From: a virus
Virus record (IMG/VR): IMGVR_UViG_3300028840_003668
Location: 1 to 29,036 of that record
Length of the DNA: 29,036 nucleotides
Strand: one strand, 5' to 3'
Position numbers and translations under genes: made by a program. Of the stretch, positions 17,223 to 27,728 are shown piece by piece. The notes beneath the pieces are model-generated. The model worked only from the letters and a program-made list of their open reading frames with translations, did no database searches and was not told the DNA's origin. How positions within the stretch are numbered: the first letter of the stretch is position 1; each line of letters begins with the position of its first letter.

Positions 17223-17600
17223 TTATGGGGCCTCTTGCTCTGCCTTAATCAGATACAACCGAATAAAACCCAGCGATCCCCCGTCCTCGGATGGACGGCC
17301 TAACAGATAGGTTACTTTATCAGCTTCAGGATCTGGAGTAATAGGGATCTGAACGCTCCATTTTTCCCCGGGAACTGGCACACGGGAAAGGCTGGAACGT
17401 CTCACGGTGACAACAGGTTTATGAACGATCATTTCTCCGCCTGTGGCTGGATTTTCTACAATCGTATCATAAAGTATCTGGCCGTTTACGTTCTGCTCTA
17501 CCCCGTCTGGATCTTTTAATACAACCGGAAGGCCCCAGTTTTTAGGATCCTCCAGCGTATCGGCAAGATCCATTTCTGCCAGTTCCCTTAGGTTTGTCAT
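17223..17600 (-). CDS. Head-tail joining protein, FII-like candidate
   Basis: A 125-residue protein rich in beta strands: LPVVLKDPDGV, ILYDTIVENPATGGEMIVHKPVVTVRRSSLSRVP, GEKWSVQIPITPD and SLGFIRLYLIK. The pattern fits small head-tail attachment proteins such as lambda FII (~117 residues), which I recall in Mu-like phages of related hosts. It is ATGA-coupled to the gene upstream and directly followed by the next stop/start pair. Family match is by eye, moderate confidence. Confidence 0.6.
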   Translation of the reverse strand: MTNLRELAEMDLADTLEDPKNWGLPVVLKDPDGVEQNVNGQILYDTIVENPATGGEMIVHKPVVTVRRSSLSRVPVPGEKWSVQIPITPDPEADKVTYLLGRPSEDGGSLGFIRLYLIKAEQEAP

Positions 17601-17749
17601 TTATCGTTTTTTGTTTGCTTTGGTTTTCCGGTTTTCTTTTCAAGAGATTCCTTCATTTTCTTGGGCATTGTCTTTGCAATTTCCTCGGGGATCTCGTTTT
17701 TGAAAACTCGTTTATTCCAGCAAACTGTTACTCCCTTGGGCAGCTTCAT
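17597..17749 (-). CDS. Small Lys-rich phage protein
   Basis: A 50-residue reading frame, MKLPKGVTVCWNKRVF... to KQTKNDK, with a good ribosome site (aaaggag) 11 bases upstream and an ATGA overlap of its stop with the FII-like gene. Position between the capsid-side miniprotein and the joining protein suggests a head-completion or regulatory peptide. No domain recognised. The WNKR motif loosely echoes WNDKR in the neighbour upstream, which may or may not mean common origin. Confidence 0.65.
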   Translation of the reverse strand: MKLPKGVTVCWNKRVFKNEIPEEIAKTMPKKMKESLEKKTGKPKQTKNDK

Positions 17750-17755
17750 TTTAAA

Positions 17756-17953
17756 TTACTCCTTTGCCTTTTTAGCCTTTTTCTTTTCCGGCTTTTTAGG
17801 CTCAGGGGCTGCCTTGCTTTCCGTAATGTGATCGGATTTCATAAGGGTTTTTTTCCTTTTGTCCGACACTTCAGTCATGGGGATTGAATCCCCGTATCTG
17901 TACAGCTTGCCACTGTTTCCGCGCAATACGGATCTTTTATCATTCCAGAACAT
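17756..17953 (-). CDS. Small head-region protein with basic tail
   Basis: A 65-residue protein starting MFWNDKRSVLRGNSGKLYRYG and ending in a Pro/Lys-rich tail (PEPKKPEKKKAKKAKE). A strong ribosome site (acagaggagga) precedes the ATG just after the capsid stop. No family is recognised. The short structured part followed by a charged tail is common among phage head-completion miniproteins. The tail codons also supply the ribosome site of the next gene. Confidence 0.6.
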   Translation of the reverse strand: MFWNDKRSVLRGNSGKLYRYGDSIPMTEVSDKRKKTLMKSDHITESKAAPEPKKPEKKKAKKAKE

Positions 17954-23568: not shown

Positions 23569-25155
23569 TTATTTTATTTCCCACGGGGGCAAGGGCAATT
23601 CTTTGTATTGCCTGGCAAGTTTTGCCCTGTTTGCTCTGCCGTCCGTTCCGTTTTTCTCTCGGGCAACCCGATCAAGATCCTGGGCCCCGATTTCAATATA
23701 TGTTTTATCCGCCTTTGCAGTTCTCAGCGGATCAATATTTGGCATAGGTGATCCGATCCATGCACACGAAAGCCAGGCGGCCCGTAATCTCGGATCCTGC
23801 CAGCCCGGGGCCTGAATTCTGCCGGCTGCAATTTCCCCTTCCAACCATGCCTCATATATCGGCCTTAAAAAATCAGCCTCGATCTCAGCTCTCCATATCT
23901 GGGCAATTCTCCAGAACAGGATCAGGGTTGCCCGGGAAGCTGAATAATTCTGATTGAATCTCATTAATAGAATTTCGATCGGCATTCCCGAAGAGGCTGC
24001 CAGATATGCACAAAACGAATCAACAAACCGATCGTATTGCTGGGCTGGGGTTGTATCCCTGAAGGGCTCGAGGCTTTCCCCTTCCTTCAGGTTGAACACT
24101 CCCACGGATCCCGGCTGGGTAATCGTTGCCTCAGGTAATGGAATATATGACAGATCCATAGTCTCGGAAATATCATCAAGGGGGCTTTGTGTAGGGCTGG
24201 CCCCTATGTAATCGGAAGGGGCTTGCCCTGCCGGCCTTGTAATATCAAGTAAAGGATTACTGGCCGGATTATCCGGGCTGGGTTTTACCCACATTGTAAT
24301 TGATGACTGATTGATCGCTTTTTTAATGTGGGAAGTTGAAAAATCCGTCAAGTTTTCGAATTCCTGCAGGGCATGAGCAAGGCGGGAATATCCACGGCCT
24401 TGAAAAGCGTAATCTTGCTGGAACCCGTGTAAAATCATCTTTTTTCCAGATTTCGGGCCTTTGGCCGGAACTTTAACAAGCTCGTAAGCATTATTTTTTA
24501 ATACATAAACCCAGTATGCGATCTCCCGGCCGTCAATATCCCGTTCTATTCCGTCCCCTTCAAGGAACTGATAACCCAGGGTATTTATTATTGCATCCCC
24601 TCGGATCTGGCTTGGATCTATAAATCCAAACTGCAGGGGATTCAGCAGATCAGAACGCTGGGAATAAAACAACCTTACAAAATAATCATTGTCCCTCTGT
24701 TGAAATATTTCAACGAGCCGTTGAGCCTGATAAAATGTAAGATTTTCCAGCCTATGGCATTTTTTGCAACTGGCCCACAAGTCAAACCGTTCTGATACAT
24801 TTTGCCCCCAGGCCTCAGCCCTTTCGGGATCCAGATCCAGGATCTGGGATCTCGGGGTTGCGTCAAGCTTTAAACCCACTTCGATCACTGTATCGGCAAA
24901 ACGTTCGACTATTGCCCGGGCTTGTGGGGTATCATGAAAGGCCGATCGGGCATTCTGCCGGGTTAGGGCATTGTTGATCGAAGGGCTCAGGCCGGAATTG
25001 CTGAGGCCCCAGGGCCATTTTGATCCCCCGGTTCCGTAATAATCCTGGCCGTAAAACCTTCCATATGAAGCTTCAGGCGGTTCGACAATCTGCAAACTTC
25101 TTACTTTTATTCCATCTGTAAAGGCTTCATTGAATTTCTTTGCAGGTAATGACAT
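23569..25155 (-). CDS. Portal protein, lambda gpB-like
   Basis: A 528-residue portal of the lambda gpB family (gpB is 533). Recognisable are ALTRQNARSAFHDTPQARAIVERFADTVIEVGLKL near the N-terminus, LGYQFLEGDGIERD, GREIAYWVYVLK, MILHGFQQDYAFQGRGYSRL and the QNYSASRATLILFWRIAQIWRAEI stretch typical of the clip/stem region. It forms the dodecameric packaging vertex. Start at 25155, not the longer frame at 25206, because it overlaps the upstream stop as TAATG and gives the MSLPAKK start expected for the family. Confidence 0.9.
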   Translation of the reverse strand: MSLPAKKFNEAFTDGIKVRSLQIVEPPEASYGRFYGQDYYGTGGSKWPWGLSNSGLSPSINNALTRQNARSAFHDTPQARAIVERFADTVIEVGLKLDATPRSQILDLDPERAEAWGQNVSERFDLWASCKKCHRLENLTFYQAQRLVEIFQQRDNDYFVRLFYSQRSDLLNPLQFGFIDPSQIRGDAIINTLGYQFLEGDGIERDIDGREIAYWVYVLKNNAYELVKVPAKGPKSGKKMILHGFQQDYAFQGRGYSRLAHALQEFENLTDFSTSHIKKAINQSSITMWVKPSPDNPASNPLLDITRPAGQAPSDYIGASPTQSPLDDISETMDLSYIPLPEATITQPGSVGVFNLKEGESLEPFRDTTPAQQYDRFVDSFCAYLAASSGMPIEILLMRFNQNYSASRATLILFWRIAQIWRAEIEADFLRPIYEAWLEGEIAAGRIQAPGWQDPRLRAAWLSCAWIGSPMPNIDPLRTAKADKTYIEIGAQDLDRVAREKNGTDGRANRAKLARQYKELPLPPWEIK

Positions 25156-25445
25156 TACCAAACCCTTTGTTTGCGTCTCAGGTTCATAACCACAAGGCCC
25201 CCACATTCTAGCCGCCTGTATAAATTAGCGATCTCTTGCTCCAGGCTATCAATTATTTCTTTTACTTCGGTTAGTTTTCGCCTTTTGGCCTGTTGGCTGC
25301 CTTCCCCTGAATCAAATCTGTATGATTCAATTTCTTCCCCTAGCAGCGTATCAAGTAATGTTTCGGCTTTTGCTTTCTGGGCTTCCTTGGTTGCGATCTC
25401 TTCTCTGATTCTGTCCCGTTCTGATTGGTTCAAACAGTTGGCCAT
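25155..25445 (-). CDS. gpW-like small head-tail protein
   Basis: A 96-residue highly helical protein between terminase and portal, where lambda has W. Features: an N-terminal helical hairpin, the IESYRFDSGEGSQQAKRRKL stretch and a second helix LTEVKEIIDSLEQEIANLYRRL. The FDSGEGSQ...RR.L...I..LE pattern is recurrent in gpW-like or DUF6148-type proteins of mosaic phages. It probably joins the filled head to the connector. It follows the structured non-coding gap, and its own ribosome site (aggtgag) is only fair. Confidence 0.7.
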   Translation of the reverse strand: MANCLNQSERDRIREEIATKEAQKAKAETLLDTLLGEEIESYRFDSGEGSQQAKRRKLTEVKEIIDSLEQEIANLYRRLECGGLVVMNLRRKQRVW

Positions 25446-25501
25446 ATGCTCACCTTATTCTGACTATATATATTTTTCCGAATCAGTCAATGTAACATAA
25501 A

Positions 25502-25534
25502 GAACCCCCTGGATATGGGGGGCCCAGGGGGTTC
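25502..25534. terminator. 11-bp hairpin, weak terminator-like on the minus strand
   Basis: Perfect 11-base arms gaaccccctgg and ccagggggttc around an 11-base G-rich loop. On the minus strand it is followed by a modest U-rich run (tttatgtt), so it could act as a partial rho-independent terminator or attenuator before the portal gene. Without a longer U-tract, termination is uncertain. Confidence 0.4.
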
Positions 25535-25556
25535 AACCCTAAACAGAGGAAGGGTT
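25535..25556. repeat. Hairpin with RBS-like loop
   Basis: Arms aaccct and agggtt around a 10-base loop. On the plus strand the loop is aaacagagga, identical to the ribosome-site region of several late genes. On the minus strand the loop is its exact complement (tcctctgttt). It directly abuts the first hairpin. Confidence 0.55.
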
Positions 25557-25567
25557 GAAATAATAAT

Positions 25568-25587
25568 ACAGATTTTATCGAATCTGT
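25568..25587. repeat. Small A/T-rich hairpin
   Basis: Arms acagatt and aatctgt, 7 bp, with a 6-base loop (ttatcg). Third element of the same cluster, between the RBS-like hairpin and the 15-bp hairpin. Confidence 0.5.
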
Positions 25588-25602
25588 CCACCTGGGCCCG
25601 GA

Positions 25603-25642
25603 AAGGCGACGGCCCCCGGAGGGTACAGGGGGCCGTTGCCTT
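25603..25642. repeat. 15-bp hairpin, strongest of the cluster
   Basis: Left arm aaggcgacggccccc at 25603-25617, right arm gggggccgttgcctt at 25628-25642: 14 matched pairs plus one G-T pair, with a 10-base loop (ggagggtaca). Very GC-rich, so it should fold on either strand. Not followed by T-runs, hence not a simple terminator. The G-T pair keeps pairing in the plus-strand RNA (G-U), whereas the minus-strand RNA has a C-A mismatch. Confidence 0.55.
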
Positions 25643-25720
25643 GGTAAGTCAAACACAGTTAATGAGGTTCGAATTTTCTGGGGTTGCCCCTCCTTTCTGA
25701 AATTTAAGATCAACAAATGA

Positions 25721-25743
25721 AGCCCGATCGTAAATTATCGGCT
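25721..25743. terminator. Hairpin after the terminase gene
   Basis: Arms agcccgat and atcggct pair over 7 bp with one bulged C. On the plus strand it is followed by a T-rich run (tttattctgtcaattttt), so it would be a weak terminator for a plus-strand transcript. On the minus strand it lies 9 bases after the terminase stop without a strong T-run. Confidence 0.35.
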
Positions 25744-25751
25744 TTATTCTG

Positions 25752-27728
25752 TCAATTTTTCTTACTGCCTTTGGCCGGCGTTACGGGTACAGGCTGCCCG
25801 GTTTTAATAGTCAGATAATCAAGGATCGTTCTGGAATTTATTTGCTGCAGCTGCATAGGGTGAACGCCCCGGCTTTGTTGGCTGGCAATATATAATTTTA
25901 CCGCTGAATCAAGGTAAACATCTGCAGCCCCGAGGCAATAAACCCGGCAATCAAGGCTTTCGTTTCTACGGCCTCCAGATTGAAAACTACCGTCTGATTT
26001 TTTTTCTTCTGCAACTAACATTCTGAAATATTTTTCTGAATAATCGGCTGGAAAATCACAAAACCCCGGCTTTTGCGGTTCCTGATCTCTTCTCTGCAAT
26101 TTTAGATTTCTATAAATAATATTTTTATAATGCTCTGTTGATAGCGTGTAGAGTGTCAGATCCTGATCCAGCTTGGTTGCCCTGAATCTCTTATATGATT
26201 TAAATCCGGCAATGTCGGATTTTTCCCCCTTTCGGGTTTTCACCATTGAATCACCCTTGCAAGGATAAAACCATTTCGGCAGCCGTTCACAGAACTGATA
26301 AACCACATGGGAAATATTACCGTCTCCGGAATCTATAAACCCAAGTTCCGGAGTAAAAGCATAGTTATCCTTTCTATTAAAATTCAGCTTTCCGGCCTGT
26401 ATAAATTCGTATAGTTCCTCCCATGCTCCAGAATACGGATCGTCAACTGCCCCGTAAAATATTTCATATGCAATGCTCCAGGTTCTGTAGCCTAACCCAT
26501 GCCCACAGATTTCGATCTCTATTCTGGCCGGGTTTTCGTCCGGCCGGCTTTCGCTTCCCCTCTGAATATCTGCCCCGGCAGTTAGAAATAAAACCCCATA
26601 AGGAACCGATCGGCTTTTATAATTCCCCCTCAGCTCGATCACGTTCTCGAGTTTTGGCCGGCTGCCCTTTTCCTTGTATGGCATTCCCAGATATAAATTT
26701 GTAAAGCTCTGGATCTCGTTTTCTTCCTGGGCCCTTGTCCAGAGGCCCCAGAGTTCGAACCAGTCGATCATACCTACCGGGCTGTAAATCGTTGAAAGCT
26801 GATACGATCTGTAATATCTGCTATGGCTCTGCCCCGTGGGCCTCCATTCCCCGGCCTTCAGCATTCCTGTTTTATGGTGATTCCGGATCGGTTCTGTACA
26901 TTTCGCACATTCATAAAAAACGTTTTCAATCCTGCCGGCCGTTGTTTCGGGCTTTATCCGTTCCCACTCCAGGATCTGCATTGTTCCACAATACGGACAA
27001 GGAACAAAAAAACGCCTTTCATCTCCGGCCAGGTATTCTTTATAAATTGCCGAATCTTCGAATGTTGTGGGGGTTGAAAAATCCAGCACTTTACGGCGGG
27101 CCCCCCAGGCGTTTGTTCTGGCATAGGACACGTTCAACCAGTTCCCTTCATGTGTTCTAAGTAGGATCGGGGCCCCGTCAATTTCATCCCGAATCAATAC
27201 CCGTTTTGCGTCTGCCCTGAGACTGGCCGCTGATTGTGCTGAGGCCATATCAAGGGCCCCGCCTGCATATTCCTTCACAAACGTTTTATCCCCCGTTCTC
27301 CGCGTGTGTGTATTCTCCGTTTGCGCTGCAAATTTATGCCTCAATCCGCATGAATCGATCAGAGGTTCAAGCCGTTTAGTTGCCCACTTTTCCAATAAAT
27401 CCCCGGTTGCAGAAATAAACAGGATCTCTGCCGGGCTTTCATCGATCCAGTATGCGATCACGTTCTCAGCGTTTGCGGTTGCCCCTATCTGGGCCCCCTT
27501 CATAAATACAGTATGTTGAACCGGACTGTGGGGGGCCATGTTGTTCATAATTTCTATGAGGTAAGGCGTCCTTTCATTGCTCCAGAAACCGGGAAAGGGT
27601 GTACTAGGGGGCATAATCCGGCGATCCTGGATATAATCCGAAATCAGGCCGATCGGTTTTCTGATCGGTTTCTTCAGATTTTCATCAATAAAAAAATCAA
27701 TGTCTATCTGGTAAGGATCAGCTTTCAT
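25752..27728 (-). CDS. Terminase large subunit, GpA family
   Basis: A 658-residue DNA-packaging motor of the lambda gpA family (641 in lambda). ATPase part: Walker A-like KGAQIGAT at residues 77-84, Walker B VLIRDEID at 177-184. A zinc-like CPYC at 244-247 with CAKC at 274-277 follows. The nuclease part begins near LFLTAGADIQ and includes GFIDSGDGN. It cuts concatemeric DNA at the packaging site and drives it into the prohead with the small subunit. ATGA overlap with the upstream nuclease gene. Its 3' end faces the structured intergenic region. Confidence 0.92.
   Translation of the reverse strand: MKADPYQIDIDFFIDENLKKPIRKPIGLISDYIQDRRIMPPSTPFPGFWSNERTPYLIEIMNNMAPHSPVQHTVFMKGAQIGATANAENVIAYWIDESPAEILFISATGDLLEKWATKRLEPLIDSCGLRHKFAAQTENTHTRRTGDKTFVKEYAGGALDMASAQSAASLRADAKRVLIRDEIDGAPILLRTHEGNWLNVSYARTNAWGARRKVLDFSTPTTFEDSAIYKEYLAGDERRFFVPCPYCGTMQILEWERIKPETTAGRIENVFYECAKCTEPIRNHHKTGMLKAGEWRPTGQSHSRYYRSYQLSTIYSPVGMIDWFELWGLWTRAQEENEIQSFTNLYLGMPYKEKGSRPKLENVIELRGNYKSRSVPYGVLFLTAGADIQRGSESRPDENPARIEIEICGHGLGYRTWSIAYEIFYGAVDDPYSGAWEELYEFIQAGKLNFNRKDNYAFTPELGFIDSGDGNISHVVYQFCERLPKWFYPCKGDSMVKTRKGEKSDIAGFKSYKRFRATKLDQDLTLYTLSTEHYKNIIYRNLKLQRRDQEPQKPGFCDFPADYSEKYFRMLVAEEKKSDGSFQSGGRRNESLDCRVYCLGAADVYLDSAVKLYIASQQSRGVHPMQLQQINSRTILDYLTIKTGQPVPVTPAKGSKKN

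Follow-up and report, generated by a model that had tools for sequence, protein, structure and literature searches.

A folded non-coding gap between the terminase and head genes of an uncultured phage is probably a transcription boundary

Introduction

What purpose is served by some 300 folded, non-coding bases between the DNA-packaging genes and the head genes of a phage? The question is raised by the window analysed here, a virus record of 29036 bases from an uncultured phage. A first-pass annotation of the sequence had singled out the gap, and had offered as candidates a structured regulatory RNA, an attenuator setting the ratio of terminase to head genes, and a plus-strand RNA acting as a sponge for CsrA-type proteins. 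Here the gap is considered through its folding, its predicted promoters and the corresponding junction in relatives of the phage.

Results

The genes flanking the gap are all on the minus strand, and separate into DNA-packaging genes on one side and head genes on the other:

25752..27728, minus strand: terL, the gpA-type terminase large subunit (Pfam GpA_ATPase 1e-58, GpA_nuclease 3e-46)
25155..25445, minus strand: gpW-like head-tail connector gene, 96 aa, named by position
23569-25206: lambda-family portal gene

The gap measures exactly 306 bases, bounded by the stop codon of terL (25752) and the ATG of the gpW-like gene (25445). It is the largest intergenic gap on the minus strand, the runner-up having 139 bases, in agreement with the earlier statement that the operon holds only one gap of more than 300. 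Lying between terL and the portal gene, the 96-aa gene corresponds in position to gpW of lambda. Pfam gave no match for its protein, and searches with gpW as a single query or as an alignment query gave no usable matches. The family aligns well across the relatives, and the member in one of them (L002) has a weak match to a head-tail adaptor family. With terL and portal as queries, several hundred loci were found. About 115 distinct relatives were compared, and in 94 distinct loci both terL and gpW could be located. The terL nearest to that of the window shares 58% identity with it. The closest cellular copies are in MAGs of Desulfobacteraceae (55%), Zixiibacteriota (54%) and Desulfuromonadales (50%), and from these assignments a host in the Desulfobacterota may be guessed. 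Among the best 25 matches listed, no phage isolate exceeded 34% terL identity, and all were below 60%.

The gap folds more stably than every one of its dinucleotide shuffles, with z = -4.0 for the plus and -3.7 for the minus strand. In a coarse scan with 25 shuffles it came about fourth by fold z among 193 windows, and two other 306-base stretches had clearly lower values; the gap is thus one of the most strongly folded regions of the window, but not the only one. In the same coarse 25-shuffle scan, two stretches with a fold z below that of the gap lie within coding sequence at 17331-17936, a region containing small genes with good SDs. The GC content is 0.458 in the gap, 0.464 in terL and 0.480 in portal, and rises to 0.574 in the 141-base core. 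Promoters were scored with a matrix trained on the relatives only, with the window excluded, and the sites in the window were ranked on both strands. The elements of the gap, in the order in which minus-strand transcription would meet them, are:

25727..25755, minus strand: P0, predicted promoter TTGACA-17-TACGAT lying over the terL stop codon (14.1 bits, best site in the window)
25720..25744, minus strand: hairpin adjoining the terL stop, overlapping the spacer and -10 of P0
25496..25720, minus strand: predicted P0 transcript of ~225 nt, a candidate non-coding RNA, its ends placed from the promoter and terminator
25680..25690, minus strand: small hairpin GGGGCAACCCC; the SD-like AAAGGAGGGG beside it has no start codon within working range
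25603..25642, minus strand: 15-bp hairpin with one non-Watson-Crick position, minus-strand loop TGTACCCTCC, and a U-tract on neither side
25520..25599, minus strand: alternative three-way junction, in which 25599-25588 pairs with 25531-25520 and so excludes the terminator hairpin
25563..25590, minus strand: P1, weak promoter-like TGGACA-16-TATTAT, the spacer being an inverted repeat
25568-25587: 7-bp hairpin
25532..25559, minus strand: 9-bp hairpin TTCAACCCT / AGGGTTGAA
25496..25534, minus strand: terminator-like hairpin GAACCCCCTGG / CCAGGGGGTTC, then TTCTTTATG (moderate U-tract)
25463..25490, minus strand: P2, TTGACT-16-TATAGT, predicted promoter of the gpW-portal head unit (12.6 bits, second best site)
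25450..25456, minus strand: SD-like AAGGTGA for gpW, after P2; most relatives have no SD here

The hairpins described in the first-pass annotation were all recovered, that is, the four within 141 bases (25502-25534, 25532-25559, 25568-25587 and 25603-25642), the 15-bp stem at 25603-25642, apart from its one unconventional pair, and the fifth by the terminase stop at 25720-25744. The stem at 25603-25642 is the longest in the 29 kb window and that at 25502-25534 ties for second; the latter, terminator-like hairpin has 11 bp and -15.9 kcal/mol, with only a moderate U-tract and a competing alternative fold. A search of Rfam with the whole window at gathering score, together with a lax search of the gap and 12 relatives' loci, gave no match, and no tRNA or tmRNA was found in the window. 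Searched at the DNA level against records of phages, plasmids and eight of the relatives, the gap had only chance-level matches. No homologous hairpin set was seen in any relative, and the relatives' gaps have no sequence in common with that of the window.

The predicted P0 transcript, 25720-25496, folds with z = -4.7, none of 200 shuffles being as stable, and contains no ATG before its last three bases. P1 was at first favoured as the main promoter for its likeness to P2 (20 of 29 positions identical, a likeness reached in 2 of 300 shuffles), and was dropped because it falls outside the 25 best sites in the window by the clade matrix. That matrix gave no good promoter on the plus strand in or near the gap. 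P2 has the position of the conserved promoter found before gpW in the relatives, described below. Its -10 ends 17 nt before the gpW ATG, compared with 5-9 nt in most relatives, and is followed by the SD-like AAGGTGA, so that the window phage is predicted to keep a short leader with an SD rather than the leaderless arrangement of a close -10 and no SD.

A promoter of the form TTGACA-N16-18-TATAAT stands directly before gpW across the phage group. It scores at least 10/12 in 46% of the loci where the gap is no shorter than 40 bases, by mechanical start calls that are wrong in some loci (e.g. L017 and L024). The corresponding figures are 3.4% for shuffles, 8% for the opposite strand, and 1% and 4% for the sequences ahead of portal and terL, respectively. 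Loci with no gap also carry it, in that case within the end of terL. The -35 is strong, TTGACA being retained at 90-96% at five positions, and the -10 ends 5-9 nt before the gpW start in 47 of the 54 relatives with the promoter. An SD-like sequence precedes gpW in 27% of cases, against a background of 24% and a value of 66% for portal; these percentages depend on the same start calls. Leaderless placement was found for 44 of 78 gpW genes and for 16 of 416 other genes (p = 4e-28). In hold-out loci, outside the first set, it was found in 11 of 21 with the starts as called, or 13 when a later in-frame start is taken. With a -10 box 5-9 bases from the ATG and no ribosome-binding site, a leaderless gpW mRNA is predicted in most relatives. 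Of all the results, this predicted leaderless promoter, common to the group, is both the best founded and the most unexpected.

Several relatives show further sequence features around these promoters. In L129, L005 and L014 an operator-like inverted repeat, TTGTCAA...TTGACA, includes the -35 of the gpW promoter as one of its halves. L007 has an inverted repeat ATGTCCCAT...ATGGGATA across the gpW start codon, and starts related to ATGGGATA occur in L174, L151 and L186. A leaderless-type TTGACA promoter is also present before the gene upstream of terL, probably terS, in L144, L006, L008, L174 and L214.

The distance from terL to gpW varies from -23 to 4348 with a median of 114; it is at most 60 in 32 loci, 60-500 in 40 and above 500 in 22. 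The spot is empty in some relatives, and in others it contains protein genes, tRNA genes or short units of promoter, hairpin and terminator. Protein cargo, which can be on either strand, includes DNA methylases (L199, L010), a PAPS-reductase-like protein (L317), a glucosaminidase and a weakly matching lysozyme (L015, L009), and small proteins without known identity; the majority of the cargo has no family match. Three tRNA genes (Glu, Met, Thr) lie between terL and gpW at 4246-4477 in L219. In L144, 86-128 bases past the terL stop, a sequence like the 3' half of a tRNA (GGAGGGTTCGACTCCCTCCCGACCG) stands before a T-rich stretch, and ARAGORN calls no tRNA there.

Extra sense promoters were found in 12 of the 37 loci with gaps of 90-500, compared with 2 on the antisense strand and 0.7 in shuffles, and ten of the twelve have theirs at -32 to +28 from the terL stop; L002 has three promoters ahead of the gpW promoter. 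Of 40 gaps, 6 contain a promoter-to-terminator unit (the window, L002, L017, L024, L026 and L212), compared with 0.0 in shuffles. The window was counted here through P1, which the unit scan matched with the terminator because P0 is more than 170 bases away, and the pairing with P0 rests on the relatives-only matrix. Sense terminators number 20 where 7.5 are expected, with antisense terminator-like hairpins almost as frequent at 17. The units mostly lack an ORF above about 30 codons, although those of L029 and L174 enclose ORFs of 94 and 89 codons, respectively. None of the relatives' inserts shares sequence with that of the window. The gaps of L017 and L024 have in common a short unit consisting of a TTGACACCCC promoter, a CCCC-loop hairpin, a pyrimidine-rich linker and a hairpin or T-run. 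The unit in the L026 gap resembles it, and the three are possibly one RNA family with stem changes.

Discussion

We consider that the gap is probably a boundary of minus-strand transcription within the late region, carrying a small non-coding insert of the moron kind. The terminase unit would end at the gap. P0, at the terL stop, would begin a distinct RNA of about 225 nt with a strong fold, and the hairpin at 25534-25502 would end that RNA and leave it as a stable species. P2, right behind the hairpin, would then start the gpW-portal-head mRNA. P2 appears to be an old feature of the phage group, usually giving a predicted leaderless gpW mRNA, and P0, its RNA and the terminator would together make up a small insert of the moron type, where the relatives have nothing or other cargo. 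The RNA may regulate host or phage functions in trans, or its synthesis may merely insulate the head unit from terminase transcription. The evidence is drawn from sequence: a promoter that is conserved together with its position, the lack of an SD before gpW in relatives, a second promoter in the gap, more promoter-terminator units than expected, and no coding signal. To be set against it are the moderate U-tract of the window's terminator, the near equality of antisense and sense terminator-like hairpins in the gaps, the distance of P2 from the ATG, unlike that in most relatives, the lack of any homologue of the folded sequence, and the 15-bp hairpin, for which terminator function does not account. 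Of what the first-pass annotation had proposed in general terms, a structured RNA and a break in expression between terminase and head genes are supported by the promoters, the terminator-like hairpin and the recurring units.

The hairpins could instead be the remains of a decayed moron, or plain terminators, with P2 alone mattering and the P0 RNA having no task. The P0 RNA has no homologue in any relative, the inserts are unrelated in sequence and many relatives have none, all of which would suit such a remnant. A decaying element would not be expected to keep the best promoter in the window and a fold far beyond that of shuffles, however, and non-coding units recur in several relatives; we take this to be possible but doubtful. 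A different use of the same hairpins is attenuation. RNA reading through from terL or P0 would form the three-way junction and escape termination, and a ligand, protein or ribosome could then determine how much terminase mRNA is made relative to head mRNA. The terminator-excluding helix is indeed preferred in upstream-started transcripts (pair probability 0.99 for the junction, 0.003 for the terminator hairpin), while RNA begun at P1 can form only the terminator, so that this part of the earlier proposal is possible. An equally good helix arises in 50 of 1000 shuffles (5%, p = 0.05), the helix depends on the self-complementary GGGCCC, and with P2 in place read-through is not needed for the head genes, which together make an attenuator unlikely. 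Phage lambda offers another precedent in pR', 6S RNA and tR', where a constitutive-looking promoter, a short structured RNA and a terminator are followed by the late genes. By analogy P0 would always fire and a Q-like factor would permit read-through into the head genes. The order of elements in the window is the same, and promoter-terminator units are in matching order in L002, L026 and L212. Unlike those of lambda, the head genes here have their own promoter, P2, directly behind, and control of this type seems to us quite improbable.

The remaining explanations fare less well. An ORF at 25483-25716 (77 aa) is the sole long frame here and is open from 10 nt past the P0 -10 box, as a small protein gene expressed from P0 might be. 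It starts with TTG and has no SD, its codon usage is non-coding (-0.09 per codon, compared with +0.09 to +0.32 for other genes) and it has no relatives in phage records or viral contigs; the codon usage and the absence of relatives rule it out as a gene in our judgement, and we regard expression of such a protein as very improbable. We give an equally slight chance to a DNA-level packaging site, cos or pac. The gap contains long inverted repeats and lies beside terL, but it is missing in many relatives with the same terminase. Moreover, judged by eye, the contigs of many relatives tend to end some 0.7-1.0 kb ahead of terL, an apparent clustering that would fit a cos site upstream of terS rather than in the gap. 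Least probable of all is the plus-strand CsrA/RsmA sponge. GGA is present in two plus-strand loops, as had been noted, but these loops are on the non-transcribed strand and the transcribed minus strand reads TCC there, for which reason the sponge is rejected. The surrounding genes are all minus, the plus strand offers no good promoter in or near the gap, and the Rfam check that had been suggested returned nothing at gathering score and no CsrB/RsmX/Y/Z family even at E < 5.

A wider form of the boundary and moron-like insert reading can be put forward tentatively, as a speculation that we think doubtful in its full extent. The terL-gpW junction might be a hotspot of fast-evolving non-coding morons that act in trans on the RNAs of the host or of rival phages, placed before a clade-wide leaderless promoter that frees the head operon both from terminase transcription and from SD-based initiation. 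The comparison with the relatives shifts the focus from one odd gap to a rule for a whole group of uncultured phages. Its members seem to initiate head-gene transcription at a dedicated promoter of host type, with mostly leaderless mRNA, behind an accessory spot, which suggests how the expression of terminase and head genes could be uncoupled without a single long late transcript. Exact RNA 5' ends are predicted and can be checked in any cultured member, and the junction is a place in which to seek new phage RNAs and accessory genes.

We found no description of the terL-gpW junction in the open-licence literature on sRNAs of phages, on their leaderless late genes and on morons in late operons, and the nearest comparisons, beside that with lambda, are with three known systems. 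Phage morons are autonomous promoter-gene-terminator inserts (criteria as used in PMC5567305). The insert in the window is like them in having its own predicted sigma70-type promoter (P0, the best-scoring site) and a place between late genes at which relatives have nothing or an unrelated insert (distances of -23 to 4348). The terminator-like hairpin behind it, with its moderate U-tract and competing fold, may be the counterpart of their terminator. It differs in that its cargo has no coding signal and in that the GC content of the whole gap (0.458) is close to that of its neighbours (0.464 and 0.480). Prophage ncRNAs have been reported where transcriptomes exist (PMC7067206), and the prophage sRNAs AgvB and AsxR of E. 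coli O157 are encoded at a moron insertion site downstream of PR' (PMC4104026). They resemble the RNA predicted here in being short, terminated and encoded close to a late promoter at an accessory location, whereas the unit in the window is at terL-gpW and oriented as the late genes, and pairing with Hfq or host sRNAs is not known for it. Finally, leaderless genes with a -10 box adjoining the ORF are described for Deinococcus-Thermus (PMC12340547). The gpW genes of the relatives, with a -10 5-9 nt before the ATG and no SD, are of this type, except that they keep a strong -35 TTGACA and that the window phage itself has a short leader and an SD.
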